Positions 4,032 through 39,396 of a DNA stretch of 57,935 bases are shown in pieces. The DNA comes from a bacterium. Its GTDB lineage: Bacteria; Vulcanimicrobiota; Vulcanimicrobiia; Eremiobacterales; Eremiobacteraceae. Position 1 is the first letter of the stretch, and each line of letters starts with the position of its first letter. The translations under genes were made by a program, and so were the position numbers. The stretch spans positions 1 through 57,935 of the forward strand of contig CADDZI010000007.1 in assembly GCA_902812405.1 (NCBI GenBank). Reading direction: 5' to 3'. Below the pieces are notes generated by a model. It searched no databases. It saw only the letters and a program-made list of their open reading frames with translations, and had not been told where the DNA came from.

Positions 4032-4090
4032 GCGTGCGTGTCCCTCCTTGCGAGAAGAGGATTGCGCGATGCCGGGCGGCGCCACCTCCT

Positions 4091-19376: not shown

Positions 19377-20294
19377 ATGACCGCCGCTGCCTCCGTACCG
19401 GGCAAAGAGCTTGAGGACAACCATCGCGCCGCGTTGCGGTCGGCGCTGGGCGATGCGGTACGCTTCAACGAACCCTTGGCGCCCAAGACATCCATGCGAA
19501 TCGGGGGACCTGCCGCCGCCTATGTCTCGGTGAGCACCCCCGCGCTGCTGGCACAGGTCTTGCAGATCTGCGAGAGCGAGGGGCTTGCGTGGACGGTCCT
19601 CGGGCGCGGTAGCAACGTTGTGGTCCGGGATGCGGGCTTTGCCGGTGTCGTCATTCACCTGACCGGCGAGTTTACGAAAATTTCCGTCGAGGGTGAAACC
19701 ATCCGCGCCGGCGGCGCGGTCCCCATCGTTGCCGTATGCCGCGAAGCCGCCCGCGCCGGGCTCGAGGGCGCCGAGGAGCTGGCCGGCATACCGGGGAGCG
19801 TCGGCGGTGCGATTCGCATGAATGCCGGCACCCGGGTCGAGATCGGAGATTTGGTTAGGCGTGTCGGCATTCTGATTCCCGGCCATCCCGGTCTCGACAT
19901 CTTGCCTCAATTTGCGTACCGAACGTCGAGCCTTGATCGGCGCGCCGTCGTCTGCTTCGCCGACCTCGTGCTGCGGCGCGGCGATCGACAGGCGGTCCAG
20001 GCACGAGTGCGGGAGCACCTTGCGCGGCGCAACGCAACGCAACCGCTCTCGCTTCCCAATGCCGGGAGTATTTTCCGCAACCCGCCCGGTGATTTTGCCG
20101 CACGCCTGATCGAGGCGGCGGGATGCAAGGGCATGCGCTGCGGGGGCGCCGAGGTCTCGCCCAAGCACGCCAACTTCATCGTCAACCGCGGCGGGGCAAC
20201 CTGCGCCGACGTGCTGAGCCTCATCGATCGCGTCCGTGACGCCGTGCGGCAGCGGCACGGCGTGGAGCTGGAACTCGAAATTCAGATCCTCTAA
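19377..20294 (+). CDS. murB: UDP-N-acetylenolpyruvoylglucosamine reductase MurB
   Basis: 305-residue cytoplasmic FAD enzyme that reduces the enolpyruvyl group of UDP-GlcNAc-enolpyruvate to UDP-MurNAc with NADPH. Motifs: NTSMRIGG-like KTSMRIGGPAAAYVSV, FAD pyrophosphate region VLGRGSNVVVRDAGFAGVVI, GIPGSVGGAIRMNAG, the proton-donor serine in LPNAGSIFRNP, and SPKHANFIVNRGGAT near the end. In most bacteria murB follows murC in the dcw cluster. Here it lies about 2.3 kb beyond murC, on the opposite strand, with palindromic repeats on both sides, which suggests an inversion. No strong ribosome site was seen; the start follows the family. Confidence 0.95.
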   Translation: MTAAASVPGKELEDNHRAALRSALGDAVRFNEPLAPKTSMRIGGPAAAYVSVSTPALLAQVLQICESEGLAWTVLGRGSNVVVRDAGFAGVVIHLTGEFTKISVEGETIRAGGAVPIVAVCREAARAGLEGAEELAGIPGSVGGAIRMNAGTRVEIGDLVRRVGILIPGHPGLDILPQFAYRTSSLDRRAVVCFADLVLRRGDRQAVQARVREHLARRNATQPLSLPNAGSIFRNPPGDFAARLIEAAGCKGMRCGGAEVSPKHANFIVNRGGATCADVLSLIDRVRDAVRQRHGVELELEIQIL

Positions 20295-22560: not shown

Positions 22561-22586
22561 CTCGGTCGCGCAAGCGCGGCTGCTAC
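22561..22586. repeat. Palindromic repeat overlapping the murC stop codon
   Basis: One copy (GGTCGCGCAAGCGCGGC, one arm mismatch) preceded by the conserved flank GGAACGTTCTCT at 22551-22562. Read on the minus strand, its GTAGC terminus provides the TAG stop of murC at 22583-22585. Confidence 0.85.
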
Positions 22587-24001
22587 GGGGTGAACGATTC
22601 CGTGGGGCGCGAAAACTCGGCCGCCAACTCGTGAGCGACCCCGCCGATATCTCCCGCACCCAACGTCAACACGAGGTCCCCGGGCTTGATCGTGCGCTGC
22701 AGGTAGGCCAAGACGTCCGCCGGCTTGGGCAGGTGCATGGCCTCCTTGTCGGCGTCGAGGTCCCGAATGAAATCCACGATTGACTCAGCGCGCACGCCGG
22801 GCAGGGGCAATTCACCGGCCGGGTAGATGTCGGTGACGAGCACGACGTCGGCGCGCACCAAAGCGCGTGCGAAGTCGCGCGCCAGGTAGGCCGTGCGGCT
22901 GTAGCGGTGCGGCTGAAAGGCCACGACGATGCGCCCCGGCCAGTACGCACGCGCCGCGCCGATCGTCTCCTGCACGGCGGTCGGGTGGTGCGCATAGTCG
23001 TCGACAACCATCAGCGACGAGCTCTCGTAGAGAACCTGGAAGCGCCGCGCCACGCCCCGGAAGCGCGCCAGCGCGCGGGCGATGACCTCGAACGGCACAC
23101 CGAAGCGCAACCCCACCGCCGTCGCACACAGCGCGTTGGAGACGTTGATCAACCCCGGCACGCGCAGGACGATCTCGCCCAGCGTCTGGCCCCCGGCCAC
23201 GACCCGGAAGGACGAACCGAAATCCGCCAGCTCGGCCTGCACGCCACGCACGCCGGCCGTTGCGTCAAAGCCGGCCGTCACAATCTCGGGATCGCCGAGC
23301 AGGCTCGGCGTCTGGCGCAGCCGGCGGATGAGCTCGTTGACCGCCGGGCAATCCGCCGAGGCCACAATGGTCCCGCCGGCGGGCACCCGCGCGACGAACG
23401 CACCGAAGGTTTCGATGAGGTGCTCGAGGTCACGATAGTACCCCAAGTGGTCGTTCTCGATGTTCGTGACGACCGCACAGGCCGGACGCAATCGCAGAAA
23501 CGAGGCATCGCTCTCGTCCGCCTCGGCGACGACAACGTCACCCGAACCCAGACGCGCGTTGGCGCCCAGGTCGTTGACCTCGCCGCCGATGAGAACCGTG
23601 GGTGCCATCCCCGCCGCATCCAGCACCGCGGCGATCATCGAGGTCGTCGTCGTCTTGCCGTGAGTGCCGGACACCGCGATGCCGCGTTTGCCGGCCATAA
23701 TCTCGGCCAGCATTTCGGCGCGCTGCAGGACCGGAATCCCGGCCTTGCGCGCCGCGATGACTTCCGGATTATCCGGCGGAATGGCCGATGAGATGACGAC
23801 GACGTCCGCCCCGGCAACATTCTCCGAGGCATGACCGAGCGTGACACGCGCGCCCAAGCCCCGCAGCTTCTCCAGCATGCCGTTCATCTTCAAGTCCGAC
23901 CCGGAGACGCTGACGCCCAGCGCCAACAGCACGCGCGCGATCGCGCTCATGCCGATTCCGCCGATGCCGACAAAATGCACGTGGCGATGATGGGTGTTCA
24001 T
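22583..24001 (-). CDS. murC: UDP-N-acetylmuramate--L-alanine ligase MurC
   Basis: 472-residue cytoplasmic ATP-dependent ligase that adds L-alanine to UDP-MurNAc, the first step of stem-peptide assembly. The N-terminal Rossmann motif is HFVGIGGIGMSAIARVL, the ATP P-loop GTHGKTTTTSMIA, followed by EADESDASFLRLRPACAVVT and NIENDHLGYY; the C-terminal ligase domain contains DDYAHHPTAVQETIGAAR and FQPHRYSRT. It is the last gene of the dcw run, separated from murG by about 225 bases of low-information sequence. Its stop codon lies in a palindromic repeat, so the final residues (around ESFTP) may differ from the ancestral end. Confidence 0.97.
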   Translation of the reverse strand: MNTHHRHVHFVGIGGIGMSAIARVLLALGVSVSGSDLKMNGMLEKLRGLGARVTLGHASENVAGADVVVISSAIPPDNPEVIAARKAGIPVLQRAEMLAEIMAGKRGIAVSGTHGKTTTTSMIAAVLDAAGMAPTVLIGGEVNDLGANARLGSGDVVVAEADESDASFLRLRPACAVVTNIENDHLGYYRDLEHLIETFGAFVARVPAGGTIVASADCPAVNELIRRLRQTPSLLGDPEIVTAGFDATAGVRGVQAELADFGSSFRVVAGGQTLGEIVLRVPGLINVSNALCATAVGLRFGVPFEVIARALARFRGVARRFQVLYESSSLMVVDDYAHHPTAVQETIGAARAYWPGRIVVAFQPHRYSRTAYLARDFARALVRADVVLVTDIYPAGELPLPGVRAESIVDFIRDLDADKEAMHLPKPADVLAYLQRTIKPGDLVLTLGAGDIGGVAHELAAEFSRPTESFTP

Positions 24002-24225
24002 CTCACCCGGCAGCGTTTGGCGCTCGCCGGTACGAGCGCCTTCCGGACGCCGCTCACGCCTTGCGACGCACGTTCACCGAACACACACGCACCCGCAGCC
24101 CTGCGCGCGTCGCCCCATGTGTCGCCCCCATACAACACCCACGCAGGCCGCCCCAATCACTGCGCCCCGCATCGCCCAACGCATCGCCCGCGCATCAGCC
24201 ACACCTCAGCCCCGCGCCCGCCCAC

Positions 24226-25413
24226 TCAGACGGTCGCCGCGCCCGTCGGCGCCGTTTCGAGCAGACGGGCCAGCATACGGCGTGCAGCGTCGGGTTGAGC
24301 CAGCGCCGCAAGCCGGCTACGCAGTGCATCGCGCTTCTCGGGCCGCGCGAGATCCATGAGCTGCCAGTAGAGGGCATCCGCGCTTAAAGCCGCATCCGCA
24401 ATGCTGACGGCGGCGCCATGCCGGGACAGGTACTCGGCGTTTGCCGCCTGGTGGCCGTCCGCGGCATGCGGGTACGGCACGAGCAGCGCCGGCAGTGCCG
24501 CCGCACAGAGCTCGGCGACCGTTGAGGCGCCCGCCCGGCATACCGCAACGTCCGCCGCCCAGTACGCCAAGGGCATCGAGTCAAGGTACGGCACCGCTAG
24601 GTAACGGTTGGCGTTGGGCTCTGCCTTGCGCTCGGCGGCCATCCACTCGTAGTCGCGCTGCCCGGTCACGTGCAACACTTGCCAGTCCGACGGCAATCGC
24701 CGGCGCGCCACCATACCGCTGACGGCCAGGTTGATGCTGCGCGCCCCTTGACTGCCGCCGAAGGCCAAAACGGTGAAGGATGAAGCGTCCAAACCCAGAC
24801 TGCGGCGCGCCTGATCGCGCGGTATCGGCGTTTGCAGCCCGGTGCGCACCGGAATGCCAGTCGGCACGAACTTGGATCCGAAGAACGCCGCCGTCGCCGA
24901 ATCCGGATAGGCACCCCACACTTCATCCGCAAAGCGCGCCAGGCGGCGGTTGGCCGCCCCCGGCACGACGTTGGGCTCGATGAGGGCAATGCGCAGCCCG
25001 CGCAGCGATCGGCTCGCGCGCAGCAGTGCGCCGGCGAGCACCGCAGGAACGCATGCAAAGCCCCCGCTGCCGACGATGACGTCGGGCCGGAAATGCGAGA
25101 CGACGGGCAAGGCCTGAACGACCCCGGCGGCGTTGGCGGCCAGACCGACCGCCCGTTGCAGACCGACGCTCCCGGCAAGAGGCTGTGACCTGACGGTCGT
25201 GTAGGGCACGCCGTCGCGCGTCAAGAGCTGCTCGTCGAGGTGGCCCTCCGATCCGACGACGAGCACCGCGTGGTGCCCGCCCGCTCCCGCCACCTCGCCG
25301 GCCGGCGGTGTGCAGACGCCCTCGTCCTTGCTGCCGCGCAGCAGGGCCTGCGCCAGCACGAGGACCGGATAGAGGTGACCGCCGGTCCCGCCGCCGGCAA
25401 ACAGCACGCGCAT
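24226..25413 (-). CDS. murG: UDP-GlcNAc:lipid I N-acetylglucosaminyltransferase MurG
   Basis: 395-residue membrane-associated GT28 glycosyltransferase making lipid II from lipid I. Motifs: the N-terminal glycine-rich loop FAGGGTGGHLYP, GSGGFACVPAVLAG, LAFGGSQGARSINLAV, and the donor-binding CRAGASTVAELCAAALPALL with YPHAADGHQAANAEYL. An unusual insert of about 15 residues (KDEGVCTPPAGEVAGAGG) follows the first helix, between ALLRG and AVLVVGSEGHL, compared with typical MurG. The start is supported by family alignment and by position downstream of ftsW. Confidence 0.96.
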   Translation of the reverse strand: MRVLFAGGGTGGHLYPVLVLAQALLRGSKDEGVCTPPAGEVAGAGGHHAVLVVGSEGHLDEQLLTRDGVPYTTVRSQPLAGSVGLQRAVGLAANAAGVVQALPVVSHFRPDVIVGSGGFACVPAVLAGALLRASRSLRGLRIALIEPNVVPGAANRRLARFADEVWGAYPDSATAAFFGSKFVPTGIPVRTGLQTPIPRDQARRSLGLDASSFTVLAFGGSQGARSINLAVSGMVARRRLPSDWQVLHVTGQRDYEWMAAERKAEPNANRYLAVPYLDSMPLAYWAADVAVCRAGASTVAELCAAALPALLVPYPHAADGHQAANAEYLSRHGAAVSIADAALSADALYWQLMDLARPEKRDALRSRLAALAQPDAARRMLARLLETAPTGAATV

Positions 25414-25497
25414 CCTTCAGCCACTCCGGAGGGTGTTGCGCATTGGAATCCTTCGCACGGCGAACCGGCGAGCAAAGGCAAACATCACGCCCAAGTT

Positions 25498-26634
25498 TTA
25501 GGCAGCCCGAGGCGGTACACAGGCCAGATCCGTGACGGGCCGGCGCGGTCCCCGCGACACACCGGCGATGAGGCCGGCCGAAAAGAGCGTCATGACAAGC
25601 GACGTGCCGCCATAACTGATAAACGGCAGCGGCACACCGGTAATCGGCCAGGACCCACTCACGACGGCCACGTTCATCAGCGCCTGGAGAGTGATGCCTA
25701 CCGTCAATCCAAACGCCAGGTGGAACCCAAACCGGTCCTCGGCGCGCAACGCAATGCGGATGCCGCGGTAGGCAAAGACGACAAAAAGCGTGAGGACGGC
25801 GAGGGCGCCGATGAAGCCCAACTCCTCGCCGATGATTGCAAAGATAAAATCCGTGTGCTGCGCCGGCAAGTACCCGAATTTTTGCCGGCTCTCACCCAAG
25901 CCCAAACCCAGCCAGCGGCCCGACCCCAGCGCGTAGAGAGACTGAATGATGTGGTAGCCCGTCCCCTGCGGGTCCTTCCACGGGTCGAGGAACGCCAAAA
26001 AGCGCGCGCGCCGGTAGGGGCTGGCGTAGATGAACTCCAGCATGGCGGGCACGGCCACCGCAGCTTCCAGCGCCAGATGTGACGGGCGCGCTCCGGCGGC
26101 AAACAACATGACGAAGGCCGTCACCAGGTACAGCGACGCCGTTCCCAGGTCGGGTTCGCGCATGACGAGAGCAAAGCACAGACCGACGCAGAGAAGCGCC
26201 GGAAAGCCAGCCCGCGCGAACGAACGCGCCCCCTCGCGACGCAGCGAGAACAGGTGGGCCAGCATCACCACGAGCGCCAGTTTTGCGACCTCCGACGGCT
26301 CGAAGGTGAAAATGCCGAGCGCAAGCCAGCGCCGCGCACCACCCTCGATGAAACCAACAGGCGACACGAGGACGGCGCCCAGCAGAACAACCGCCGCCCC
26401 GAAGATCCAGGGTGCCAGCAACCGCAGACGCCGATAGTCCAGCCGTGCACCGGCGTAGAACGCGCACGCACCGACGCCAGCCCACAACAGCTCGCGCTTG
26501 AGGTAGTACGCGGCGTCGTGGAACTGGACGTAGGCCACGGCCGAGGAGGCTGAAAAGACCATGACGATGCCGATGCCGGTCAGCACGAGCGTCACGATCA
26601 GAAAACCCGCGTCGAGAGGCCGCTGTGCGCTCAC
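25498..26634 (-). CDS. ftsW: SEDS-family peptidoglycan polymerase FtsW
   Basis: 378-residue inner-membrane glycosyltransferase with about ten helices that polymerises lipid II at the septum together with the cognate transpeptidase. Characteristic: GIVMVFSASSA in helix one, WLALGIFTFEPSEVAKLALV, MREPDLGTASL, the extracellular loop FLDPWKDPQGTGYHIIQSLY, LGLGESRQKFGYLPAQHTDF, and PFISYGGTSLVMTLFSAGLI. The position between murD and murG in the dcw cluster supports FtsW rather than RodA. Its start codon overlaps the murD stop by four bases, so translational coupling is likely. Confidence 0.95.
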   Translation of the reverse strand: MSAQRPLDAGFLIVTLVLTGIGIVMVFSASSAVAYVQFHDAAYYLKRELLWAGVGACAFYAGARLDYRRLRLLAPWIFGAAVVLLGAVLVSPVGFIEGGARRWLALGIFTFEPSEVAKLALVVMLAHLFSLRREGARSFARAGFPALLCVGLCFALVMREPDLGTASLYLVTAFVMLFAAGARPSHLALEAAVAVPAMLEFIYASPYRRARFLAFLDPWKDPQGTGYHIIQSLYALGSGRWLGLGLGESRQKFGYLPAQHTDFIFAIIGEELGFIGALAVLTLFVVFAYRGIRIALRAEDRFGFHLAFGLTVGITLQALMNVAVVSGSWPITGVPLPFISYGGTSLVMTLFSAGLIAGVSRGPRRPVTDLACVPPRAA

Positions 26635-28019
26635 GACGCCGCCACGTTGCGCCCGCCGGCGCCGGTCGAACGGGCCAAGACGGCAAAGCGCTCACCGCGT
26701 TGCTCGGCGCTTTCGAACATGTCGAAGGACGCGCAGCCGGGCGAGAGCAAGACCGCGTCGCCTGCCACGGCGGCCGCGGCCGCAGCCGAGACCGCTTCCT
26801 CCAAATCCCTTGCGTACTGCACGGGGGGGCCGTCAATATGCAACCCGATGTCGCGCGCGGCCTCGCCGATGAGAATGACGCGCTTGGCCCGCCGCGCTGC
26901 GGCATGACCAAGCGGACGAAAGTCGGTCTTCTTACTGCGGCCGCCGGCGATCAAGATCACGGGCCCGTCGACCGCCTCGAGCGCAGCGACCGTCGCCGCG
27001 GGGTTGGTGGCCTTGCTGTCATCGATCCAGGTCACGCCGTCGGCGACGTGCACCGTGGCCAGACGGTGCGGCAGCGGCGCAAACGTCGTGAGGCCGCGGC
27101 GCACCGCCTCCAGCGGCGCACCGGCGTGCAGGGCGGCCAGCGCCGCCGCCATCGCGTTGGCAACGTTGTGCGTGCCGCGCAGACGCAGATCGGAAACTGA
27201 GACCAGTGGAACTTCGCGGCGACGGTCGCGCACGACGAGGATGTCGCCCAGGCGCACGAGGCGCAGTCCCCGGTCTGAGGCGTTCGTGCCGAACCACGCC
27301 GCAGGGCACGGCACGCGCCGCGTTTTTCCCGTACGCAGGAGAGCGCAGTACGCATCATCGGCGTTACCGATGAAGACGTCACCCCGGGATTGATTGGCGA
27401 AAATCCGGTACTTGGCCTCGGCGTACTCCTCCATCGAGGGGTAGCGGTCCAGGTGATCTTCCGTGATGTTGAGCAAGACGCTGATGCGGGGTGCAAACGT
27501 GCGGATACTCTCCAGCTGGAAGCTCGAAACTTCGGCGACGATCCAGGCACCGTGGGGCGCTGCTGCGGCCTCGATGACCAGCGGGTTGCCGATGTTCCCG
27601 CCGACCCGGTTCGTGAGGCCGGCTTCGGTCAAGAGATGACCGATGAGGGCGGTGGTCGTCGACTTGCCCTTGCTCCCGGTGACGGCGATGAGCGGACCCC
27701 GGGCGATGGTGTACGCCAGTTCGATCTCCGAGATGACAGCAACGCCCGCGGCCTGAACCGCGCGAACCGCCGGATGGGTAAGCGGCACACCGGGTGAGAC
27801 GACGGCTCCCGTCGCGGCGCGTACCGCACTCGGCAATTCCTGGGGACCCACGAGCGGCACACCAAGTGCGGCCAACTCCTCTCGTTGCATGCCCAGGCGT
27901 TCGGAAGGCGCGTCGTCGTAGGCGACGACGCCAACGCCGCGCTCCCGCAGCACCTTGGCGGTCGCCATGCCGCTGCGTCCCACGCCGATGATGATGACCG
28001 AATCGTGCGCGCCGTACAT
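26631..28019 (-). CDS. murD: UDP-N-acetylmuramoylalanine--D-glutamate ligase MurD
   Basis: 462-residue cytoplasmic ligase adding D-glutamate to UDP-MurNAc-L-Ala. It shows the N-terminal nucleotide-binding start (IIGVGRSGMATAKVLRERGV), the ATP loop GSKGKSTTTALIGHLL, LNITEDHLDRYPSMEEYAEA, the hinge RGTHNVANAMAAALA, and the C-terminal WIDDSKATNPAATVAALEAV with LLSPGCASFDMF. Its start immediately follows the stop of the elongated mraY frame (one base apart); that close coupling depends on the repeat-encoded tail of mraY. Confidence 0.96.
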   Translation of the reverse strand: MYGAHDSVIIIGVGRSGMATAKVLRERGVGVVAYDDAPSERLGMQREELAALGVPLVGPQELPSAVRAATGAVVSPGVPLTHPAVRAVQAAGVAVISEIELAYTIARGPLIAVTGSKGKSTTTALIGHLLTEAGLTNRVGGNIGNPLVIEAAAAPHGAWIVAEVSSFQLESIRTFAPRISVLLNITEDHLDRYPSMEEYAEAKYRIFANQSRGDVFIGNADDAYCALLRTGKTRRVPCPAAWFGTNASDRGLRLVRLGDILVVRDRRREVPLVSVSDLRLRGTHNVANAMAAALAALHAGAPLEAVRRGLTTFAPLPHRLATVHVADGVTWIDDSKATNPAATVAALEAVDGPVILIAGGRSKKTDFRPLGHAAARRAKRVILIGEAARDIGLHIDGPPVQYARDLEEAVSAAAAAAVAGDAVLLSPGCASFDMFESAEQRGERFAVLARSTGAGGRNVAAS

Positions 28020-29159
28020 TCAGCTTCGACCTGTCGCGCTATTCGCGGCTTGCCCGGCATGTCCGCCTGCAGCCGGGCGTCGCGTCGGTCGCGCGAGCTC
28101 GACCGCTACAGGACGCCAGCCGCCCGCATGCAGCGCCGGCGATGTTTCTCGTAGCGGCTGCGCTCGCGCGGCCGAGAGAACGTAACTGTTTTGGGCCTTG
28201 TTGCTTGCCATCCATGCCGTCCACGTCGCCGCCGCGGCCAGCGTGCCGCAGGCAACGAAAAGCCAGGTCACCGCGGTCTCGCGCCAGCCGGACAGCTCAA
28301 AGTGGTGATGCAGGGGGCTCATCTTGAGGATGCGCCGGCCGGTGGTCTGAAAAGTTGCGACCTGAGCGATGACGGAGAGCGCTTCGGCAACGAAGACGAT
28401 GCCAAACAACGGCAGCAAGAGCAATGCGTGTCCTTCGATTGCGCAACCCGCAAGCAGGGCGCCCAGGGCCAGCGACCCGGCATCGCCCATGAAGATGCGG
28501 GCCGGGTGGCGGTTGAACCACAAGAACACCAAGAGCCCGCCGAGAACGGCGTCGGCGATCGCACCGCCCCCGGGCAGCCCGACGTAGTACGCGGTCAGCT
28601 GCACGCCGATGATCGCTGGCACGCTGGTTCCGGCGGCCAATCCGTCAAGCCCATCGGTGAGATTGACCGCATTGGCCGCACCAACGACTGCCGCGACGGC
28701 CAGCGCGTACCACAGCCACAGCGGCAAGGCCAGGCTGCCCGCAAACCACGCCTGGCGCGGACCGCCGAAACCCGCCGCATACGTCCACAACACGTATCCC
28801 AGAGCAGCTAGCAGGAGCAGCGCCATCTTTTCGCGCGCGCGCAAGCCCACGGCGCGGCCGGTGCGCACGATGAGGAGATCGTCGGCAAGGCCGATGAGTC
28901 CGGCGGCGACCACGAGCGCGAGCAGAGGCAGCAGCGCCCGCTGGTGGCCGATGAAAAATCCGGCAATGGCCGCCGGGATGAAGACGACGCCGCCGAACGT
29001 CGGCGTTCCAGCCTTCGCCGCGTGGGAGCGCGGTGCGTCCTCGTAGATCACTTGACCGGCACGTTGCCGGCGCTGCGCATCGATGAGCCAGGGCAAAAGC
29101 GCGGCTGCGATGGCCGCTCCAGCGGTGATGGCAAAGGCGGTCGGCAGCGATGCGCTCAC
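28020..29159 (-). CDS. mraY: Phospho-N-acetylmuramoyl-pentapeptide transferase MraY, with repeat-derived C-terminal tail
   Basis: 379-residue integral-membrane enzyme that transfers phospho-MurNAc-pentapeptide to undecaprenyl phosphate, giving lipid I. Catalytic motifs: the GLADDLLIV aspartate pair, VNLTDGLDGLAAG, and FMGDAGSLALG, then MSPLHHHFELSGW. MraY proteins normally end soon after the last helix, here TWLFVACGTLAAAATWTAWM. This frame continues for about 56 more residues. That tail contains YVLSAARAQPLR and PVAVELARPTR, which are translations of two palindromic repeats at 28151-28176 and 28084-28109. The tail is proline/arginine/alanine rich and probably cytoplasmic or unstructured. The start overlaps the end of the upstream CofE-like gene by four bases. 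Confidence 0.95.
   Translation of the reverse strand: MSASLPTAFAITAGAAIAAALLPWLIDAQRRQRAGQVIYEDAPRSHAAKAGTPTFGGVVFIPAAIAGFFIGHQRALLPLLALVVAAGLIGLADDLLIVRTGRAVGLRAREKMALLLLAALGYVLWTYAAGFGGPRQAWFAGSLALPLWLWYALAVAAVVGAANAVNLTDGLDGLAAGTSVPAIIGVQLTAYYVGLPGGGAIADAVLGGLLVFLWFNRHPARIFMGDAGSLALGALLAGCAIEGHALLLLPLFGIVFVAEALSVIAQVATFQTTGRRILKMSPLHHHFELSGWRETAVTWLFVACGTLAAAATWTAWMASNKAQNSYVLSAARAQPLRETSPALHAGGWRPVAVELARPTRRPAAGGHAGQAANSATGRS
28084..28176. repeat. Two palindromic repeats inside the 3' end of mraY
   Basis: Copies at 28084-28109 (GGTCGCGCGAGCTCGACC) and 28151-28176 (GCGGCTGCGCTCGCGCGGCC, followed by the GAGAGAACGT flank). They are the only copies in the window that lie within a coding frame. 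Read on the mraY strand neither puts its TAG in frame, so translation continues through both. Confidence 0.85.
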
Positions 29160-29947
29160 GCAGCGAGAAAAACGGCGTGCGGCGGTGACCCGCGCTGGGG
29201 CCGGTACTTGAGAACGACGAGCGGCGTCTGCTCGTCCGCGTTGCCCGCGGGATTGTGCAGCAGACAGGCGCGCACCGCGGCTTCGTTGACACCCGGGCTG
29301 GCACCCAACACCTCGGCCTTTCCCAGGTCATTGGCATCGACGATGCACACCGCGCAGCCGCAGGCCTGCGCGAGCCGAGCTGCCGTCTGCTGCGGTTCTT
29401 TGGGTCCGAGCACGATGTGCGTGTCGTAGGGCGGCATGGTTCCTGTGTAGCCGTCGATTTCGGCGACCTCGGGGCCGAGGATGCGGTAAAAATCACCGCG
29501 ACGGCCGATCAGGCGTCCGGCGGCGCCGGCCGCGGCCGCCGCAAGCACCTTCAGCGTGCCGGCCGACTCCAATACGAGCTGCATGGATTCGGGCTGACAG
29601 ACGGTCGAGTACGACCCCGCGCGGCGCGCCAACATGCGCGCCAGACGCGACGGGCGGATGTAGGGCGCCGCAAGAGCGCGACCCTGCGCAATGGCCACGG
29701 CTGTTTCGGCGACGCAGACGACGTCGCCGGGCTGCGCGATGCCGCGCACACACCGGGCCACGAGGTCCGGCAGGTCGTCGCCCGGGCGCACGAGCGGCGT
29801 GCGAACGGGAAGCGCGACGATGCGCGGCGGCATACCCGGCACGTCGACCGTGAAGCTGCGCCGACTCACCACGCGACGGCCTCCCGCCTCGAGCGCGTTG
29901 CGGTCAGACAAACGGTCAGGCAATCCGCGCCGGCGCTTCGTCGACAT
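29156..29947 (-). CDS. CofE-like (F420-0:L-glutamate ligase family) protein in the dcw cluster
   Basis: About 263 residues. The first half has the CofE/F420-ligase pattern (LPVRTPLVRPGDDLPDLVAR, PGDVVCVAETAVAIAQGRAL, YIRPSRLARMLARR). The second half (RLIGRRGDFYRILGPEVAEI, DGYTGTMPPYDTHIVLGP, VCIVDANDLGKAEVLG) matches bacterial CofE-like proteins of unknown role better than true CofE. The GRPWR-type motif of the family appears replaced by DANDLGKAEVLG. True CofE adds gamma-linked glutamates to coenzyme F420-0 with GTP. This gene is locked between murF and mraY by short overlaps or gaps, and no F420 biosynthesis gene is nearby, so a role in peptidoglycan-precursor modification is an attractive inference. 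ATG 29947 is chosen over a TTG at 29962, which would overlap murF. Confidence 0.75.
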   Translation of the reverse strand: MSTKRRRGLPDRLSDRNALEAGGRRVVSRRSFTVDVPGMPPRIVALPVRTPLVRPGDDLPDLVARCVRGIAQPGDVVCVAETAVAIAQGRALAAPYIRPSRLARMLARRAGSYSTVCQPESMQLVLESAGTLKVLAAAAAGAAGRLIGRRGDFYRILGPEVAEIDGYTGTMPPYDTHIVLGPKEPQQTAARLAQACGCAVCIVDANDLGKAEVLGASPGVNEAAVRACLLHNPAGNADEQTPLVVLKYRPQRGSPPHAVFLAA

Positions 29948-29951
29948 CGGC

Positions 29952-31355
29952 TCACGACGCAAGCGCCCCCGGACCCGCCAGCGCCGGCAGCACTTCCTCC
30001 AAACGGTGGATGCGCGACGCCTTGAGCAGCACGCAATCGCCGGGGCGCAGCGTGCGCGTCAGGAGATCGGCCAGCGACGCATTGTCCGTGAATCTCAGGA
30101 TGCACGCATCGGACATGCCGGCCTGCCGGGCGCCGCGCGCGATGGCGTCGGCGTGCTCGCCGCCCACGACGAGCAGGTGGATGCCGCTGCGCGCGGCCGC
30201 TTCGCCGACCGCTTCGTGGTAGCGCTCGGCGGCGGCTCCCAATTCCGCCATGCTGCCCAATACCGCGATCTTGCGGCTGCCGTCGAGGGCGGCAAAGGAT
30301 TGGAGCGTGCAGCGCACGGAGGACGGGCTGGCGTTGTAGGCGTCGTAGACGACCGTGGCTCCATGCGTCGTGCGATGCGTTTCGAAGCGTCCGGGCGGCA
30401 AACGCAAGCTGCCGAGGACGCCGGCCGCTTCCTCGAACGGGATGCCGGCCAACGTGACGGCGGCGAGCGCCTGCAAGGCGTCGCGCAGGTGGTGCTCGCC
30501 GGGCAACCGCCACTCCGCGAAGGCGTGCGAGGCGCCCAGCGTGAGCGGAATGCGCCCCGCCGCGGGTGAGCCGGCCTCCAACATGAGACCGGCCATAACG
30601 GGATCGCCGACCAGATGCACCCACAAGGCGGCGTCTTCGCGGCGCGCTTCCGCCGCCAGCATGCGCGACCAGGTGTCGGCCGCATTGAGCACCGGCTGCG
30701 CACCGTGCGAGAAGAGGCCGAACTTCGTCCGTGCCAGGTCCTCTTGGCCGCTGAAGAACTCGAGGTGCGCCTCACCGACGTTGGTGAGGATGCCGATGTC
30801 GGGCCGTGCGATGGCGGCGAGCTCGGCGATCTCGCCCGGATGGCGCGCACCGCATTCGATGACCGCGATATCACCCGGCGCCGCTGCGGCCAGCCGGTAA
30901 CACACCTTGGCCACACCCAACTCATTGTTCTCGTTGTGGGGCGTTGCGATGACGCGGCGGAACGCTCCAGCAAGCTGCGCCGCAAACTCTTTCGTCGTCG
31001 TCTTACCGTTGCTGCCCGTGATGGCGATGACGCGGCCGTCGAAGAGGCGCCGAGCCACGGACGCACCGGCGAGGTATGCGGCCCTGGCATCCCGGACCGC
31101 AACGACGGCGACGCCCAGATCGGGCGGGAGCACAGACGGATCGTCGGCAACGACCGCGACTGCACCGCGCGCCACCGCTTGGGCGGCAAACCGATGCCCG
31201 TCGAAGCGCGGCCCGCGCAGGCAGACAAAAGTTTCACCGGGCTCGATCGATCGGGAGTCCGTGCTGGGGACAAATTCTGCCAGCGGATCTGTCCGGCCGG
31301 GATGCACAAGCGTGCCGCCGCAAGCTTCCACAAAGCGAGCGAAGGTCAGGTGCAT
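29952..31355 (-). CDS. murF: UDP-N-acetylmuramoyl-tripeptide--D-alanyl-D-alanine ligase MurF
   Basis: 467-residue cytoplasmic ligase adding D-Ala-D-Ala to the UDP-MurNAc-tripeptide. Motifs: STDSRSIEPGETFVCLRGPR, P-loop ITGSNGKTTTKEFAAQL, HNENNELGVAKVCYRLA, the IGILTNVGEAHLEFFSG domain, and YDAYNASPSSVRCTLQSFAA before the C-terminal LGSMAELG with RYHEAVGEAA. The gene overlaps the end of murE by about ten bases, so the two are probably translationally coupled. Confidence 0.96.
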   Translation of the reverse strand: MHLTFARFVEACGGTLVHPGRTDPLAEFVPSTDSRSIEPGETFVCLRGPRFDGHRFAAQAVARGAVAVVADDPSVLPPDLGVAVVAVRDARAAYLAGASVARRLFDGRVIAITGSNGKTTTKEFAAQLAGAFRRVIATPHNENNELGVAKVCYRLAAAAPGDIAVIECGARHPGEIAELAAIARPDIGILTNVGEAHLEFFSGQEDLARTKFGLFSHGAQPVLNAADTWSRMLAAEARREDAALWVHLVGDPVMAGLMLEAGSPAAGRIPLTLGASHAFAEWRLPGEHHLRDALQALAAVTLAGIPFEEAAGVLGSLRLPPGRFETHRTTHGATVVYDAYNASPSSVRCTLQSFAALDGSRKIAVLGSMAELGAAAERYHEAVGEAAARSGIHLLVVGGEHADAIARGARQAGMSDACILRFTDNASLADLLTRTLRPGDCVLLKASRIHRLEEVLPALAGPGALAS

Positions 31356-32848
31356 GTGCCGTACCGGGCTTGCAGCGCTGTACGCGCCACATTGTGGTCG
31401 GAAAACGGGCGATGCTCGGTGCCTATGATCTGATATTCCTCGTGGCCTTTGCCCGCGATGACGACTGCATCGCCGGGCTGCGCGAGCTGGATCGCGCGTG
31501 CGATGGCGGCCGCGCGGTCGGCAACGTACTCGCCTCTGCCCGCATCGGCCGGCATACCGGCCAAGACGTCGCGGGCGATGCGATCGGGGTCTTCGGTTCG
31601 CGGGTTATCCGTGGTGAGAATCGCGTAGTCGGCAAGCAGCGCGGCAACCCGCCCCATGATCGGACGCTTGGCGGCATCCCGATCCCCGCCGCAGCCGAAG
31701 ACGCACAGGATGCGGCCGCGCGTTAGCTCACGGACGGCGGTGAGCACCTTCTCCAAACCGTCCGGCGTGTGCGCATAGTCAACGTACACGCAGACGCCGC
31801 CCGCCTCCAAACGCACCATGCGGCCCGGCACACCGGTCACGGACTCCAGGCCCTCGGCCATGTCCTCGACATCCCAGTCGAGGGCAACGCCGCATGCCAA
31901 CGCGGCCAACGCGTTGGCGACGTTGAACGCCCCGGGCAGCGCGATGCGAAACGGCACCGGCCGTAAGGCGGGCACCGAAAACTGCGCTCCCTGCGGCGTC
32001 AGGGTCACGTCGCGTGCCACGAGCGTGGCGCCGGTATCGGCAAGGCCGTAGGTGAGGCAGCGGCTTTTGGGGGCCGAGCGAATTTCAGCTGCAAGCTCGC
32101 GGCCCCACGCGTCGTCGGCATTGACGACCGCCACAGCCGGCACGGCGTGCTTGCCGTAAGCCGCACTGAAGAGGCGCTTTTTGGCTGCCCGGTAGGCCTC
32201 GAGGCTACCATGGAAATCGAGGTGATCGTGCGTAAGGTTCGTCAGGACCGCAACGTCAAAGCCGACGTCATCAACGCGGTGTAACGCGAGGGCGTGGCTC
32301 GATACCTCAAGGACGGCGCCGGCCGCCCCCTGCTCCCGAAAATCCGCCAGAAGCGACTGCAATTCGTGCGGGAAGGGTGTCGTGTTCTCGAGTTCGTGCA
32401 CACGCCGGCCCCGCCAGAAGGCGCCCAGCGTTCCCACCAGACCCCACGGCCGGCCTGCCGCGCGCGCCATCGCTTCGATGAAGAACGTCGTCGTCGTCTT
32501 GCCGTTCGTGCCGGTGACACCGACCATCGTCATGTGTGCGGCCGGCTCGCCGAAGAAACGCGCAGCAATTTTTGAAAGTGCGGCGAGCGGATCGGGCACG
32601 ATGACCTGTGGGGCGGCGACATCCCGGAGGACGTGATCGGCGACGACCGCAACCGCACCGGCTCGCACGGCATCTGCGGCAAAGGCATGACCGTCGCTGC
32701 GCGCGCCGCGCAGACAAAAAAAGAGCGCTCCGGGCCGGACCCGGCGGGAGTCGGTCGCGAGCGAGGTCACGGGCTGGGCTCGCCCGAGGACGGTCGCCGG
32801 CAGGCCTGCAAACAGGCGGTCGAGGTCCGCAACGGCGGTGGGTGGCAT
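31346..32848 (-). CDS. murE: UDP-N-acetylmuramoyl-dipeptide--meso-diaminopimelate ligase MurE
   Basis: 500-residue cytoplasmic ligase adding the third stem residue. P-loop GVTGTNGKTTTTFFIEAM, LTNLTHDHLDFHGSLEAYRA, VYVDYAHTPDGLEKVL, GCGGDRDAAKRPIMG and the specificity motif TTDNPRTEDP. DNPR (rather than the lysine-enzyme pattern) indicates meso-diaminopimelate as substrate, implying DAP-type peptidoglycan. Start and ftsI stop abut at 32848, and the end overlaps murF, so this is part of a tight operon. Confidence 0.96.
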   Translation of the reverse strand: MPPTAVADLDRLFAGLPATVLGRAQPVTSLATDSRRVRPGALFFCLRGARSDGHAFAADAVRAGAVAVVADHVLRDVAAPQVIVPDPLAALSKIAARFFGEPAAHMTMVGVTGTNGKTTTTFFIEAMARAAGRPWGLVGTLGAFWRGRRVHELENTTPFPHELQSLLADFREQGAAGAVLEVSSHALALHRVDDVGFDVAVLTNLTHDHLDFHGSLEAYRAAKKRLFSAAYGKHAVPAVAVVNADDAWGRELAAEIRSAPKSRCLTYGLADTGATLVARDVTLTPQGAQFSVPALRPVPFRIALPGAFNVANALAALACGVALDWDVEDMAEGLESVTGVPGRMVRLEAGGVCVYVDYAHTPDGLEKVLTAVRELTRGRILCVFGCGGDRDAAKRPIMGRVAALLADYAILTTDNPRTEDPDRIARDVLAGMPADAGRGEYVADRAAAIARAIQLAQPGDAVVIAGKGHEEYQIIGTEHRPFSDHNVARTALQARYGTCT

Positions 32849-34692
32849 CAGAGTGTTCTTCGTGCTTGCACTCCTGCGGCCCCCGCCCGCAGCGACGGGG
32901 CAAGGGACTCTCGCCAGACGAGTTTGGCGGCCATGTCACGGAAGGCCGGCGCGGCGACGATGGCCCCGTAGTATGCCCCTTGCGGTCGGTCGACTTTCAC
33001 CAGGATGACGTACTGCGGGCGGTCGGCGGGCAGGATGCCGACGAAGGATGCCGTGTACGCGCCCGGCACGTACTGGCCGTCAATGACCATCTGCGCGGTG
33101 CCGGTTTTGCCGGCCAGGGCATAGCCCGGCAGCACAAGTCCCTTGGCCGTGCCGCGGCTGACGACGTCGCGCAGGATCTTCAAAACCTCGGCGGCGGTTT
33201 GCGGACGCATGACGCGGCGCACGACCTCGGGCCTGACGACGCGGACCACACGCCCGTCCGGTGCGGTGATGGCGCGGACGATGAGCGGGCGCATGAGCAG
33301 GCCGCCGTTGGCAAGCGCCGCATAGGCGCGGGTCAGCGCCAGGGCGGTGACGGAGATGCCCTGCCCGAAACCGATCGTTGCCAGGCGCGAACCCCACCAG
33401 TCGTCCGGGGTTCCGACGATGCCGGCGCTCTCGCCCGGCAGATCGACGCCCGTCGGTTGATCGAACCCAAAACGGCGGATGTAGTCGTACATCGTCTCTT
33501 TGCCCAGCCGCAACGCGACTTCGGCCGCGCCGACGTTGTGCGAGTAGGTCACGATATCGTCCAGCGTCTCGTCGCGGTGACCGGACGCCATCAAGCCATC
33601 GTCGGCATTGTGAATCACCCGGCCGCCGACGCGCAAGGTATCCAGCGCCGGAAAGGTGTCGTCGAGCGACACTTTGCCGGAGTCCAACGCCGCGGTGGCG
33701 GTGACGAGTTTGAACGTCGAACCCGGCTCGTAGGGATCGGTGATCGCCCGGTCCCGCCAATCTGCCGCCGGCACGGCGTCGTAGTGGTTCGGATCGAAGC
33801 CCGGATAATTTGCGAGCGCCAAGATCTCGCCGGTCGTCGCGCGCATGACGATCAGCGAGCCGCTGCGGGCGTGGAAGCGCTCGACGGTGCGGCGCAGGAT
33901 CTGATCGGCGTCGAACTGCAGGGACCGATCGATGGTCAGCACGACCGTCTGGCCGGGCTGCGCGGCGTGAACGAGACGCTTCCCGAAAGGAATCGGACGG
34001 CCTTGAGCGTCCGTCTCCTCCGCCACCGAACCTGGATGGCCTGTAAGGAGAGCATTGTACTCGTACTCGATGCCCGCCAGCCCCTGGTCGTCCACTCCGG
34101 TGAAGCCGATGACCGAGGCGCCCGAGGTGCCTTGGGGTTCGACGCGCCTCCCGAACGGCTCGGGCGTCACCCCGATACCCGCGAGGTGGAGCGCTGCGAC
34201 GGCCCGCGCGAGCGCGCCGTTTTGGTCCCGCGCGAGGTACGCAAAGGGTGCCCGCGCTCTGAGCACCTGTTCAACCTGGCCGGGCGACAGGTGCAGTACC
34301 GGGGCGACGCGGAGGGCTTCCCCGCGCGGGTCGCGCACGTTGGCCGGCCATACGCCGATCGCGTACGACGGCAGCGTGACCGCCAAAGCCGTTCCAAAGC
34401 GATCGACAATGTCGCCGCGCGTCGGATACAGGGTATAGGTGGCCGCTTGTTCGTCGCCGGCCTGCGCAGCCAGGCGCGGCCCATCCCGTACCTGCACGAC
34501 GTACAGCCGGGCGCCGAGGGCACAGAAGAGGGTGACGACCACGCTGAAAACGAGGAAGGAGCGAAAGCTTAGGTGCGATCGCTCCTCATGGCTGATGGTG
34601 CGGCTGCGCGCGCTCGCCTCGCGCGCGACGGCGCGGCGGTTAGCGCGCGCCGATCCAGCGCGTAAGGCCAAGGAAGCGTGCGAAGAGCGCAA
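32848..34692 (-). CDS. ftsI: Division transpeptidase FtsI (class B penicillin-binding protein)
   Basis: 614 residues with one N-terminal membrane anchor (FLVFSVVVTLFCALGARLYV) and the bulk in the periplasm. Dimerisation/pedestal region about 75-245 (TRGDIVDRFGTALAVTLPSY). Transpeptidase domain with all three active-site motifs: STFK with catalytic Ser near 325 and Lys near 328, SHN near 384-386, and KTG near 529-531. It cross-links septal peptidoglycan in partnership with FtsW. Its 5' end overlaps the ftsL-like gene by about 50 bases, unless a later start is used. No C-terminal PASTA domain is present. Confidence 0.95.
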   Translation of the reverse strand: MRSSHASLALRAGSARANRRAVAREASARSRTISHEERSHLSFRSFLVFSVVVTLFCALGARLYVVQVRDGPRLAAQAGDEQAATYTLYPTRGDIVDRFGTALAVTLPSYAIGVWPANVRDPRGEALRVAPVLHLSPGQVEQVLRARAPFAYLARDQNGALARAVAALHLAGIGVTPEPFGRRVEPQGTSGASVIGFTGVDDQGLAGIEYEYNALLTGHPGSVAEETDAQGRPIPFGKRLVHAAQPGQTVVLTIDRSLQFDADQILRRTVERFHARSGSLIVMRATTGEILALANYPGFDPNHYDAVPAADWRDRAITDPYEPGSTFKLVTATAALDSGKVSLDDTFPALDTLRVGGRVIHNADDGLMASGHRDETLDDIVTYSHNVGAAEVALRLGKETMYDYIRRFGFDQPTGVDLPGESAGIVGTPDDWWGSRLATIGFGQGISVTALALTRAYAALANGGLLMRPLIVRAITAPDGRVVRVVRPEVVRRVMRPQTAAEVLKILRDVVSRGTAKGLVLPGYALAGKTGTAQMVIDGQYVPGAYTASFVGILPADRPQYVILVKVDRPQGAYYGAIVAAPAFRDMAAKLVWRESLAPSLRAGAAGVQARRTL

Positions 34693-35080
34693 CGCGGGGC
34701 GCCGGGCGGGGCGGTCCTGCGCTGGGAAGGGGCAGAAATGCGATCGAGCGCGGCTCGGTCATGTGCAACTTGCGCGCCACGGCCTGCAGGTTTTGAACGG
34801 ATTCCAGTTCCGCGACGCGGCTGCGCAGGGCGGCATTGCGTTCCGCCAGCGTCGCATGGAGGCGTTGCGCCGCCGCCAAGCGGTAGGTCTGTGTCGTGAG
34901 GTCGGCCGTGCCCGCGACGTAGAGGAGAATCAAAACCAGGGGCACGGCGCACCATGCGGCCAGGCGAGCCCGAGCCAGGGTCTGCGCCAGACTGCGCTGC
35001 CGTCGTCGCCGGGAGAGAGGTCTTTTTGTCGCCGGGGGCCGCGGTTCGTAGACGGGCTGCGCGATGGCCGGCATGCTCAT
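34640..35080 (-). CDS. ftsL: FtsL-like septum protein
   Basis: 146 residues: an arginine-rich cytoplasmic head (ATKRPLSRRRRQRSLAQTL), one membrane helix at about 41-58 (AAWCAVPLVLILLYVAGTA) and a short coiled coil (QRLHATLAERNAALRSRVAE, LESVQNLQAVARKL). Size, topology and position between rsmH and ftsI are those of FtsL, which links the FtsQBL complex to FtsWI; FtsL sequences are poorly conserved, so the call rests mainly on context. ATG at 35078-35080 overlaps the rsmH stop as ATGA. A longer upstream frame antisense or parallel to rsmH is not credible. Confidence 0.8.
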   Translation of the reverse strand: MSMPAIAQPVYEPRPPATKRPLSRRRRQRSLAQTLARARLAAWCAVPLVLILLYVAGTADLTTQTYRLAAAQRLHATLAERNAALRSRVAELESVQNLQAVARKLHMTEPRSIAFLPLPSAGPPRPAPRVALFARFLGLTRWIGAR

Positions 35081-36018
35081 ACTGCATCCTCTCCTTCCTG
35101 GAGTGCCTGCGGACGGGCCAGCGCGCGCAATTTTGCGCTGCGGCTGCGCGGGTTGGCAGCAACCTCCCGCGGGCTTGGCCGCAGAGGCTTGCGCGTCACG
35201 AGTGTCGCCAGGCCCATCCGCGCAAAGGCGGCAAACCGGCGTTTGACGACGCGGTCTTCGCCGGAGTGAAAACTGATGACGACCGCGCGGCCGCCCGGCC
35301 GCAAGCGCCGCACCGCGATGTCCAGACTGCGCTCGAGATTGCTTAGATCGTCGTTGACAAGCATGCGCAGTGCCTGGAAGGTGCGCGTGGCGGGATGAAT
35401 GCGCGACCGGCGTCGCCCGCGCGGTTGCGCACTCATGACGGCGGCCACCAGCTCGCGGCTGGTCCACGACCGGATGCGGTCGCGGCGCTTGACGATGGCG
35501 CGGGCAATCGCGCGTGCGTGCCGTTCGTCGCCGTACGTACGCAACGCAGCCTCGAGGTCGGCTTCTGAAAGACGCTGCAGTAGATCCGAGGCTGTGGCTT
35601 GGCCGCTCGTCGGGTCGAGGCGCATATCCAGCGGCGCATCCTCTGCGGCGCCGAACGAGAAGCCGCGCTGCGGGTCGGCAAGCTGCAAGGACGAGAGGCC
35701 GAGGTCGTAGAGGATGCCGTCGATGCCGCTCTCCCCAGCCGAGGCCAGCGCGGCATCCAGGTGGGCAAAGTTGACGTGGTGGAGGAAGAGGCGGCCGGGG
35801 TAAAGCTCGGCCAGCGCGCGGCCGCGGGCAATGGCCTCGGGATCAGCATCCAAGGCGACAACACTGGCGTCCGGCAGTCTTTCCAAGATGGCCCGCGTAT
35901 GGCCGCCGGCACCGAAGGTGGCATCCACGAATACGCGCGGCGAGCGACCTTCGCCGGCCGGTGCCAGCATGCTCATGCATTCCTCCAGCATGACCGGCTC
36001 ATGGCTAGTAGAGTCCAA
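35077..36018 (-). CDS. rsmH: 16S rRNA (cytosine-1402-N4)-methyltransferase RsmH (MraW)
   Basis: 313-residue SAM-dependent methyltransferase acting on C1402 of 16S rRNA. Start SHEPVMLEECMSMLAP, SAM motif FVDATFGAGGHTRAILE, LDADPEAIARGRALA, GILYDLGLSSLQLADPQRGF, LDMRLDPTSGQATASDLL, HPATRTFQALRMLVNDDLSN and VVISFHSGEDRVVKRRFA are all family signatures. It overlaps the mraZ 3' end by 14 bases and the ftsL-like start by four. Normal length and position as second gene of the dcw cluster. Confidence 0.97.
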   Translation of the reverse strand: MDSTSHEPVMLEECMSMLAPAGEGRSPRVFVDATFGAGGHTRAILERLPDASVVALDADPEAIARGRALAELYPGRLFLHHVNFAHLDAALASAGESGIDGILYDLGLSSLQLADPQRGFSFGAAEDAPLDMRLDPTSGQATASDLLQRLSEADLEAALRTYGDERHARAIARAIVKRRDRIRSWTSRELVAAVMSAQPRGRRRSRIHPATRTFQALRMLVNDDLSNLERSLDIAVRRLRPGGRAVVISFHSGEDRVVKRRFAAFARMGLATLVTRKPLRPSPREVAANPRSRSAKLRALARPQALQEGEDAV

Positions 36019-36445
36019 GTTCGGTCAGCAGTTCCGCCATGTTCTCGGGCGGTGCGTGGTGCCTGCGCCAGGTCTCGGCAGCCCACAGCTCCACGCGGGT
36101 CAGGGTACCAGCCAAGATCACGTCCCGTTTGATACCGGCTGCCTCGCGAAGGCCGGCCGGTATCAGCAGGCGCCCCTGGCCGTCAAGCGACACTTCCTCG
36201 GTGTGCGCGAACAGGTGGCGTACAAAGGCCCGGTAGGCAGCGTCTTTGCGAGGCGCAGCCTCCAACTTGGCGCAAAATTCCAGCCAGGTTGCTTCCGGAT
36301 ACAGGGCCAGGCAGGACTCCGGAGGCGCAATGGTCAGCACAAAGTGATCACCCAGCCTGGCCCGTATACGCGCGGGCACGGTCAGGCGGCCCTTGTCGTC
36401 TAGAGCGTGCTCGAACTGTCCCGTGAATTTGGGTAGGGAAGACAC
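36005..36445 (-). CDS. mraZ: Transcriptional regulator MraZ
   Basis: 146-residue DNA-binding protein with two SpoVT/AbrB-like repeats: HALDDKGRLTVPARIRARLG and VSLDGQGRLLIPAGLREAAG, each with the DxKGR/DxxGR core. MraZ represses or tunes its own dcw operon by binding phased short repeats, which are present directly upstream. Start codon GTG at 36443-36445; an AGGTGG sequence 7 bases upstream serves as ribosome site and is itself part of the fourth MraZ box. The first gene of the cluster, as in most bacteria. Confidence 0.97.
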   Translation of the reverse strand: MSSLPKFTGQFEHALDDKGRLTVPARIRARLGDHFVLTIAPPESCLALYPEATWLEFCAKLEAAPRKDAAYRAFVRHLFAHTEEVSLDGQGRLLIPAGLREAAGIKRDVILAGTLTRVELWAAETWRRHHAPPENMAELLTELGLY

Positions 36446-37959: not shown

Positions 37960-38160
37960 GAGGGCGAGCATTGGAGCCCATGCGGATCCCGCGATAACCC
38001 GGTCTCCCCAAACAGCCGGGGGAAGCCCGTGGGCATGCGGCCTGCGTCACCGCATCGTCTGCACCGCCAACGCCACGAAAATGTTGCCCAGCATCTCACC
38101 CGTACCGCCCCGGCCCGCGTGACTCCAGGATAGGCGTAAAAAGCAAAGGAAGTGCACGGC

Positions 38161-39396
38161 ATGGCCTCTTCCCGCGAGGCGCAGGCCTCGCAGCCCCGCA
38201 TCGGAAGCCTGCTGCCCCAGCCCGCCGCTGCCGGACGGGCCAAGCGCGGCGTGGGATTCGACTGGATGCAGCGGGCGGGCTGGCAGCCGGTTGCCCGGCC
38301 CGGCGAACGCACGACCCGGCGCTTGAGTATCCTCGACCGCTACATCGTTTCCGAGATTGCGATTCCCTTTGCGTTTGGCGCCGCCGCCTTCACGATGTTC
38401 CTCCTCATCAACAGTTTCTTCTTGGCTCTCGACTACATCATCAACAAAAACGTTCCGTTCGGGCTCGTCGCGCGCTATATCGTCTTGCAGATTCCGTCCT
38501 TCGTGTACCTCATCTTTCCGTTCGGGGTGATGTTCGGCGTCCTCCAGGGCATCGGCCGGATGGCCGGCGACAATGAAATCACGGCCATGCGCACCAGCGG
38601 CATCGCCCTGAGCCGCATCACCCGGCCCATCGTCATCCTGGGTGTCGTTCTCACCGTGGTCTCGTTCCTCGTCAACGACTACATTGCGCCCGCCTCACAG
38701 CACAAGTCCCAGATCATCTTCCGCGAAATCGCCTACCACTCGAGCCAGCCGATCATCGAACCCGATCAGTTCATCCGCACCGAGGACGGACAGCACAGTA
38801 TCTTCGTCGGCTCGATCGATCCGAAGACCGGCCTCATGCACAGCGTCCAGATCTACTCGCTGGGCTCGGGGAACTTCCCCGAGACGCTCACCGCCGCCAC
38901 CGCCCGTCAAATCAACGGCACGCTCGTTCTCTACAACGGCATTCACACGACCTTCGGCCCGGATGGTCTGGTGACGCGGCAGCAGCACTTCGACCGGCTG
39001 ACGTTCCCCTTGGCCGACGCGTCGCTGCTGTTCGAGGGTCCGCGCGGACCCTTCGAGATGAGCTCCCGCGAATTGGCTCGCGAGATTGCTGCATTGAAGG
39101 GCAGCGGTGAAGATACGCGGCAATTCGAGATGACGCTGCAACAAAAATTCGCCATGCCCGTTGCGTGCCTGGTCAGCATCCTCATCGCCCTCCCGCTCGG
39201 CGTGCGCTTCGGCAAGGGTGGGCGCGGTGTGGCGGCCATGCTCGCGCTGATCGTGCTCCTCATGTACTGGCTGATCATGGCGGCAACCAACGCACTCGGC
39301 AAAAGCGGCGCCCTCCCGCCCCTCTTGGCGGCATGGACGCCTAACTTGTGCATGATTGCCGCCGGTTCGATCATGTTGTGGAAGGAAGGGCGTTGA
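38161..39396 (+). CDS. LptF/LptG family permease (LPS export)
   Basis: 411-residue inner-membrane protein of the YjgP/YjgQ family, the permease of the LptB2FG transporter that extracts LPS from the inner membrane. An unusual 55-residue soluble N-terminal extension precedes LSILDRYIVSEIAIPFAFGA; helices follow with PSFVYLIFPFGVMFGVLQGI, GRMAGDNEITAMRTSGI, a periplasmic beta-jellyroll (about 185-300) and C-terminal helices (MPVACLVSILIALPLGVRFG). ATG 38161 is chosen because AAAGGAAG ends about 8 bases upstream; a GTG at 38152 overlaps that site. Only one permease gene is present here, so it may form a homodimer or pair with one elsewhere. Confidence 0.9.
   Translation: MASSREAQASQPRIGSLLPQPAAAGRAKRGVGFDWMQRAGWQPVARPGERTTRRLSILDRYIVSEIAIPFAFGAAAFTMFLLINSFFLALDYIINKNVPFGLVARYIVLQIPSFVYLIFPFGVMFGVLQGIGRMAGDNEITAMRTSGIALSRITRPIVILGVVLTVVSFLVNDYIAPASQHKSQIIFREIAYHSSQPIIEPDQFIRTEDGQHSIFVGSIDPKTGLMHSVQIYSLGSGNFPETLTAATARQINGTLVLYNGIHTTFGPDGLVTRQQHFDRLTFPLADASLLFEGPRGPFEMSSRELAREIAALKGSGEDTRQFEMTLQQKFAMPVACLVSILIALPLGVRFGKGGRGVAAMLALIVLLMYWLIMAATNALGKSGALPPLLAAWTPNLCMIAAGSIMLWKEGR

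Follow-up and report, generated by a model that had tools for sequence, protein, structure and literature searches.

An open reading frame lodged between murF and mraY in the dcw cluster of an Eremiobacteraceae genome encodes a CofE-fold ligase family protein, called X here, that is strongly tied to peptidoglycan. We propose with moderate confidence that X joins a polyamine by an amide bond to the alpha-carboxyl of D-Glu in a peptidoglycan precursor, and that it is the "diamine transferase" gene. More tentatively, the CofE-fold family to which X belongs in Eremiobacterota, Cyanobacteria, Negativicutes, and other Bacillota may be the missing polyamine:D-Glu enzyme, in which case polyaminated walls would be far more widespread. 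The fold and chemistry of X are known, while the reaction proposed for its family is new and is in no paper that we found; likewise, no paper naming the gene for a wall function was found in the open-licence literature, although subscription journals and preprints may differ. The window, as used below, is the whole 57,935-nucleotide stretch of DNA that was analysed (contig CADDZI010000007.1).

The X gene and its place in the dcw cluster

X is encoded on the minus strand at 29156..29947 of the window, as supported by its ORF, a PF01996 match, and an AlphaFold model with PDB matches. Starting from the ATG at 29947 gives a protein of 263 aa and from the TTG at 29962 one of 268 aa, with the stop codon ending at 29156. 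Four bases separate the ATG from the end of the upstream neighbor murF (29952..31355, minus strand), the UDP-MurNAc-pentapeptide synthetase gene, identified from its ORF, conserved order, and Mur ligase homology. The downstream neighbor mraY (28020..29159, minus strand; ORF and conserved order), whose product makes lipid I, overlaps X by four bases. The ORF coordinates thus bear out the original prediction of a CofE-like gene between murF and mraY with a four-base mraY overlap. The cluster as a whole spans 22583..36445 on the minus strand and reads, in the direction of transcription, mraZ, rsmH, ftsL/DivIC-like, ftsI, murE, murF, X, mraY, murD, ftsW, murG, and murC; the third gene has a DivIC match, and the other names were given by sequence similarity and order.

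The G+C content of X at the three codon positions (0.75/0.55/0.81) is coding-like. X is a real gene rather than a chance ORF, since orthologues are found in 106 of 117 genomes of the class (47 of 48 genera) and the murF and mraY flanks are conserved with it. In a first set of loci, both genes flank X wherever both neighbors are on the contig (28/28). The order murF-X-mraY was recovered in 19 of 20 loci of a second set, mraY not being reported under the blast filter in the twentieth, for 47 of 48 testable class loci overall.

Elsewhere in the window, a likely murB lies on the opposite strand (19377-20294), outside the dcw run. An LptF/LptG-family permease (38152-39396), a protein with a weak LptD N-terminal match (39415-41961), and a TonB-dependent receptor (330-4085) make the organism look like a diderm.

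Fold, motifs, and separation from CofE

X belongs to the PF01996 F420_ligase superfamily by both score and fold. The Pfam match covers residues 48-132 only, at 55.2 bits (E 9e-15) against a gathering score of 25 bits, and the only significant phmmer matches were the CofE chains 2phn, 7uld, and 2g9i, across the N-terminal 77 residues. The significant Foldseek matches of the AlphaFold model (pLDDT 87.7) in the PDB were likewise to CofE alone (2g9i/2phn/7uld; E 1.6e-9 to 9.7e-9, TM ~0.5), at 22-24% identity in the structural match. X therefore resembles CofE and the N-terminal domain of FbiB (PF01996, TIGR01916) in fold, in the N-terminal part of its sequence, and in its presumed carboxyl-activating amide chemistry. 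It differs from them in its cell-wall gene context, in belonging to a genome without CofD, and in having IDxxTGTxPP and VDANDL in place of the NAGID and GRPWR-type motifs.

The motifs VDANDLGKAEVLG and GYTGTMPPYDTHIVLGP, which the original prediction had quoted along with the missing GRPWR, are indeed present in the sequence. VDANDL (residues 203-208; 29324..29341, minus strand) lies near the position of D-S-F-G-R-P-W-R in CofE, and its D204 and N206 are invariant among 70 X relatives. The segment IDGYTGTMPPYDTHI (residues 164-178; 29414..29458, minus strand) falls past the CofE NAGID position in the profile alignment, with D165, G169, P172, and P173 invariant in the same set. Altogether, 18 positions are invariant in these 70 diverse relatives from four phyla, the remainder being T50, E81, A103, G130, G151, P182, N232, P233, G235, N236, T241, and P242 (window protein numbering). 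We put forward D165 and D204 as counterparts of the CofE metal ligands as a proposal only, because the hhalign match between X and CofE stops just short of VDANDL.

Replacement of the CofE active-site motif, together with the location of X between two enzymes of one pathway, could also be read as a sign of a non-catalytic pseudo-ligase that regulates or scaffolds the MurF-MraY step. We consider this quite improbable: Asp, Glu, Asn, and Thr are among the 18 invariant positions, suggesting a retained active site, and the X domain is also found fused to an enzyme. The idea in the original prediction that X might act as a sensor of the pathway found no support.

An automatic annotation would probably name X as CofE on the strength of its PF01996 membership, and it might then be a true F420-0:glutamate ligase sitting in the dcw cluster by accident. 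However, X scores 41.1 bits against an equivalog cut-off of 180.65 (TIGR01916) and 40.4 against 274 (NF009809), and the NAGID and GRPWR-type active-site motifs absent from it are present in the CofE-like copies at L056 and L058. The F420 check, which consisted of CofD (PF01933) and PF01996 searches, detected no PF01996 protein besides X and no CofD in the window genome (2.32 Mb in 110 contigs, 96.65% complete). The single PF01933 match there (E 5.5e-114) is of a high-scoring type that almost all genomes of the phylum have; we read this type as YvcK-like because E. coli, Thermotoga, and Lactococcus, none of which makes F420, also have PF01933 matches. Lower-scoring PF01933 matches (E ~1e-42 to 1e-55), which we read as CofD, were found in outgroup families only. 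The outgroup genomes with these genes carry a second, CofE-like PF01996 copy, adjoining the CofD-like gene in several of them. The two such copies examined have ANAGID and GRPWR/GRAWR motifs, and the branch separating them from X in the tree is about 4.5 changes per site long. The complete F420 pathway with X as its CofE, named beforehand as grounds for abandoning the wall hypothesis, was thus not encountered, CofD being absent. Judged by its score, replaced motifs, and the absent CofD, X does not pass the usual criteria for a working CofE, and we reject that reading as hardly credible.

Relatives of X and their cell-wall neighbors

X is not the one-off that it had first seemed; its family is broad and uncharacterised, with members in Cyanobacteria, Negativicutes, other Bacillota, and Eremiobacterota as a whole, a breadth that points to a specific reaction. 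A genome-wide scan yielded 503 relatives, the best 80 of which come from Eremiobacterota, Cyanobacteria, Negativicutes, Syntrophomonadaceae/Peptococcaceae, and a few other lineages. In the rest of the phylum (Eremiobacterota), most genomes have an X of about 400 aa whose extra N-terminal part opens with a hydrophobic helix. Such a helix is found in many relatives, and in several, as judged by eye, it is followed by Arg/Lys residues, which would put the ligase domain in the cytoplasm. Many Bacillota have the N-terminal module and the CofE-like domain split into two adjacent genes.

Cell-wall genes recur beside X across unrelated lineages: murF and mraY in the class, murI, an amidase fusion with a flippase, and Ddl. 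The Negativicutes, in which X is present in 97 of 100 genomes, have the locus order murI, N-module, X, and the glutamate racemase gene murI is directly upstream, within 1.5 kb, in 23 of 30 loci. It also lies directly upstream in Megasphaera, Veillonella, and Selenomonadaceae contigs. These murI products were assigned to the Asp/Glu racemase family in three contigs (Pfam) and to glutamate racemase in one (TIGR00067). In three genomes of one lineage, X is fused behind Amidase_3, an N-acetylmuramoyl-L-alanine amidase (L098:3960-5573, L119:5110-6765, and L144:5026-6714). The next gene belongs to one flippase cluster in all three, and the flippase beside X is of the SpoVB/MurJ type by Pfam in two of the fusion genomes and at L126. 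The fusion proteins have no obvious signal peptide. A genome of yet another class (G130) has a Ddl-family gene directly upstream of X.

None of the X loci fetched from Eremiobacterota outside the class lies beside mur genes, which we count against the polyamine-ligase reading. One of these copies abuts folD and another abuts a homocysteine methyltransferase/methylenetetrahydrofolate reductase fusion. These single loci recall Chlamydia CT611 (FolC2), a COG1478 member that complements an E. coli folC mutant (PMC1971073). Like X, CT611 would be a protein of this family that has taken on a role in a different pathway in a bacterium lacking F420; compared by description, it is linked with folate genes and stands in for an absent FolC, whereas the X genome has FolC (G000:C18:36283-37503, E 2e-104). 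This presence makes a folate gamma-glutamyl ligase function unlikely for the window genome, and FolC is above cut-off in nearly all of the class as well. X occurs both with and without FolC, some outgroup families lacking FolC above cut-off, and a folate role would leave the class-wide mur synteny and the murI and amidase contexts unexplained. For X in general, we regard it as improbable. Among the outgroup genomes, G117-G121 and G134-G148 represent several families that keep X though FolC was not found above cut-off.

Amine-side neighbors and genome-level correlates

Genes connected with amines also adjoin X. At L124, an Orn/Lys/Arg decarboxylase gene overlaps the end of X; no linkage statistics could be drawn around this locus because it is the sole X carrier among 36 genomes of its class, the other 35 being without X. 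A pyruvoyl arginine decarboxylase family gene adjoins X in 12 Syntrophomonadaceae/Peptococcaceae loci, and its divergent orientation counts against the polyamine reading. X is present in 74 of 96 cyanobacterial genomes and is followed by a GNAT acetyltransferase gene in 22 of 30 cyanobacteria. The conserved run at L096:5704-10917 and most other cyanobacterial loci consists of X, the GNAT acetyltransferase, RuvX, a DUF3727 protein, and MltG (YceG).

The class has a source of diamines, since a PF01276 basic-amino-acid decarboxylase was found in 109 of 117 genomes. The window genome has one, assigned at the level of the Lys/Orn/Arg family (L195; G000:C44:10154-11245). Such near-universality is weak evidence for a polyamine step because decarboxylases are common. 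In a relative (L197), the decarboxylase region is followed by genes that resemble tmk and the gene of a DNA polymerase III subunit. The enzyme known to amidate D-Glu, MurT, would not occupy this residue's alpha-carboxyl in the class, since no MurT_C domain was detected in the window genome or in 116 of the 117 class genomes. X itself has no MurT_C domain by Pfam, and no MurT was detected in any of the Negativicutes or cyanobacteria tested. MurT and X occur together in 4 of 16 X genomes. The SLH domain, by which Negativicutes read the polyamine mark, occurs in only 63 of 117 class genomes, and we do not claim an outer-membrane tether as a class-wide role. We would like to note that the two folate-linked loci, the co-occurrence of MurT with X, and the patchy SLH distribution all count against the polyamine reading.

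Proposed reaction

We propose X as a polyamine:D-Glu ligase because its wall and amine neighbors, its match to the Negativicutes, and the chemistry of CofE combine to suggest one. CofE phosphorylates a carboxylate to an acyl phosphate, and attack by an amine then gives an amide (PMC10861534). X would act in the same manner on a peptidoglycan precursor, with an NTP and two metal ions activating the carboxyl before the amine attacks. From the combined evidence we infer a substrate, a stage, an amine, and a product: the likeliest carboxyl would be the alpha-carboxyl of D-Glu at stem peptide position 2, on lipid I/II or UDP-MurNAc-pentapeptide, and the likeliest amine a polyamine that the cell's own basic-amino-acid decarboxylases produce, namely cadaverine, putrescine, or a related diamine. 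The amide so formed is established in the Negativicutes, whose peptidoglycan carries polyamines on the D-Glu alpha-carboxylate (PMC10628300; the original work is that of Kamio and Hamana, as cited in PMC10628300 and PMC12826042). As would be expected of a diamine transferase gene, X is present in these polyaminated organisms.

Glaucophyte peptidoglycan has N-acetylputrescine on the second stem residue, a trait described as distinct from cyanobacteria (PMC9434261), and the GNAT gene after X in cyanobacteria recalls it. Addition of putrescine in Cyanophora takes place while the precursor is membrane-bound and is more efficient on lipid II (PMC3266927); the N-terminal hydrophobic helix of X would likewise fit a lipid-linked substrate. 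X may thus be the gene behind the diamine transferase activity of Selenomonas and the N-acetylputrescine-adding activity of Cyanophora cyanelle membranes. The proposed D-Glu alpha-carboxyl-polyamine amide and the membrane-linked precursor are the same in both, and the Selenomonas activity also matches X taxonomically. The two sides differ in that these are known as activities, with no gene named in the papers found, and are not known from Eremiobacteria. The Selenomonas ruminantium enzyme bears the name lipid intermediate:diamine transferase. We know of no report of polyamine-modified peptidoglycan in cyanobacteria or Eremiobacteria.

Alternatively, the amine that X adds to the precursor could be ammonia, glycine, a D-amino acid, or one peculiar to a lineage, or the carboxyl could be a different one, such as that of DAP. 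Every cell-wall context of X and the absence of MurT from nearly the whole class fit this, and the polyamine linkage is established in Negativicutes and glaucophytes only. We nevertheless think it rather unlikely, as the decarboxylase and GNAT neighbors in unrelated lineages point to polyamines and X is near-universal in the polyaminated Negativicutes. A polyamine on D-Glu remains our preferred product. The original prediction is partly supported overall, and its core, a CofE-like ligase modifying a peptidoglycan precursor rather than F420, is strengthened by the lack of CofD and of a second PF01996 copy, the class synteny, and the wall contexts in other phyla.

The cadaverine or putrescine of Selenomonas and Veillonella peptidoglycan has been known since the 1980s and tethers the outer membrane via OmpM. 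With a candidate ligase gene, the wall-polyamine question can be tested directly in Veillonella parvula, a species for which deletion mutants already exist (PMC10628300). If the proposal is true, most Cyanobacteria and a largely uncultured phylum would have an unrecognised modified peptidoglycan, X would be a marker for polyaminated walls, and the misleading name "coenzyme F420-0:L-glutamate ligase" would be corrected for organisms that make no F420.

Two further wall systems bear comparison. MurT-GatD, which amidates D-Glu of lipid II, acts on the same carboxyl and at the same pathway stage as proposed for X; unlike X, it has an unrelated Mur-ligase fold with a glutaminase, uses ammonia, and is nearly absent from the class. 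QimC of Streptococcus pyogenes, set beside X by description, is also a CofE-fold protein, encoded in the wall-modification qim operon (PMC13059722).
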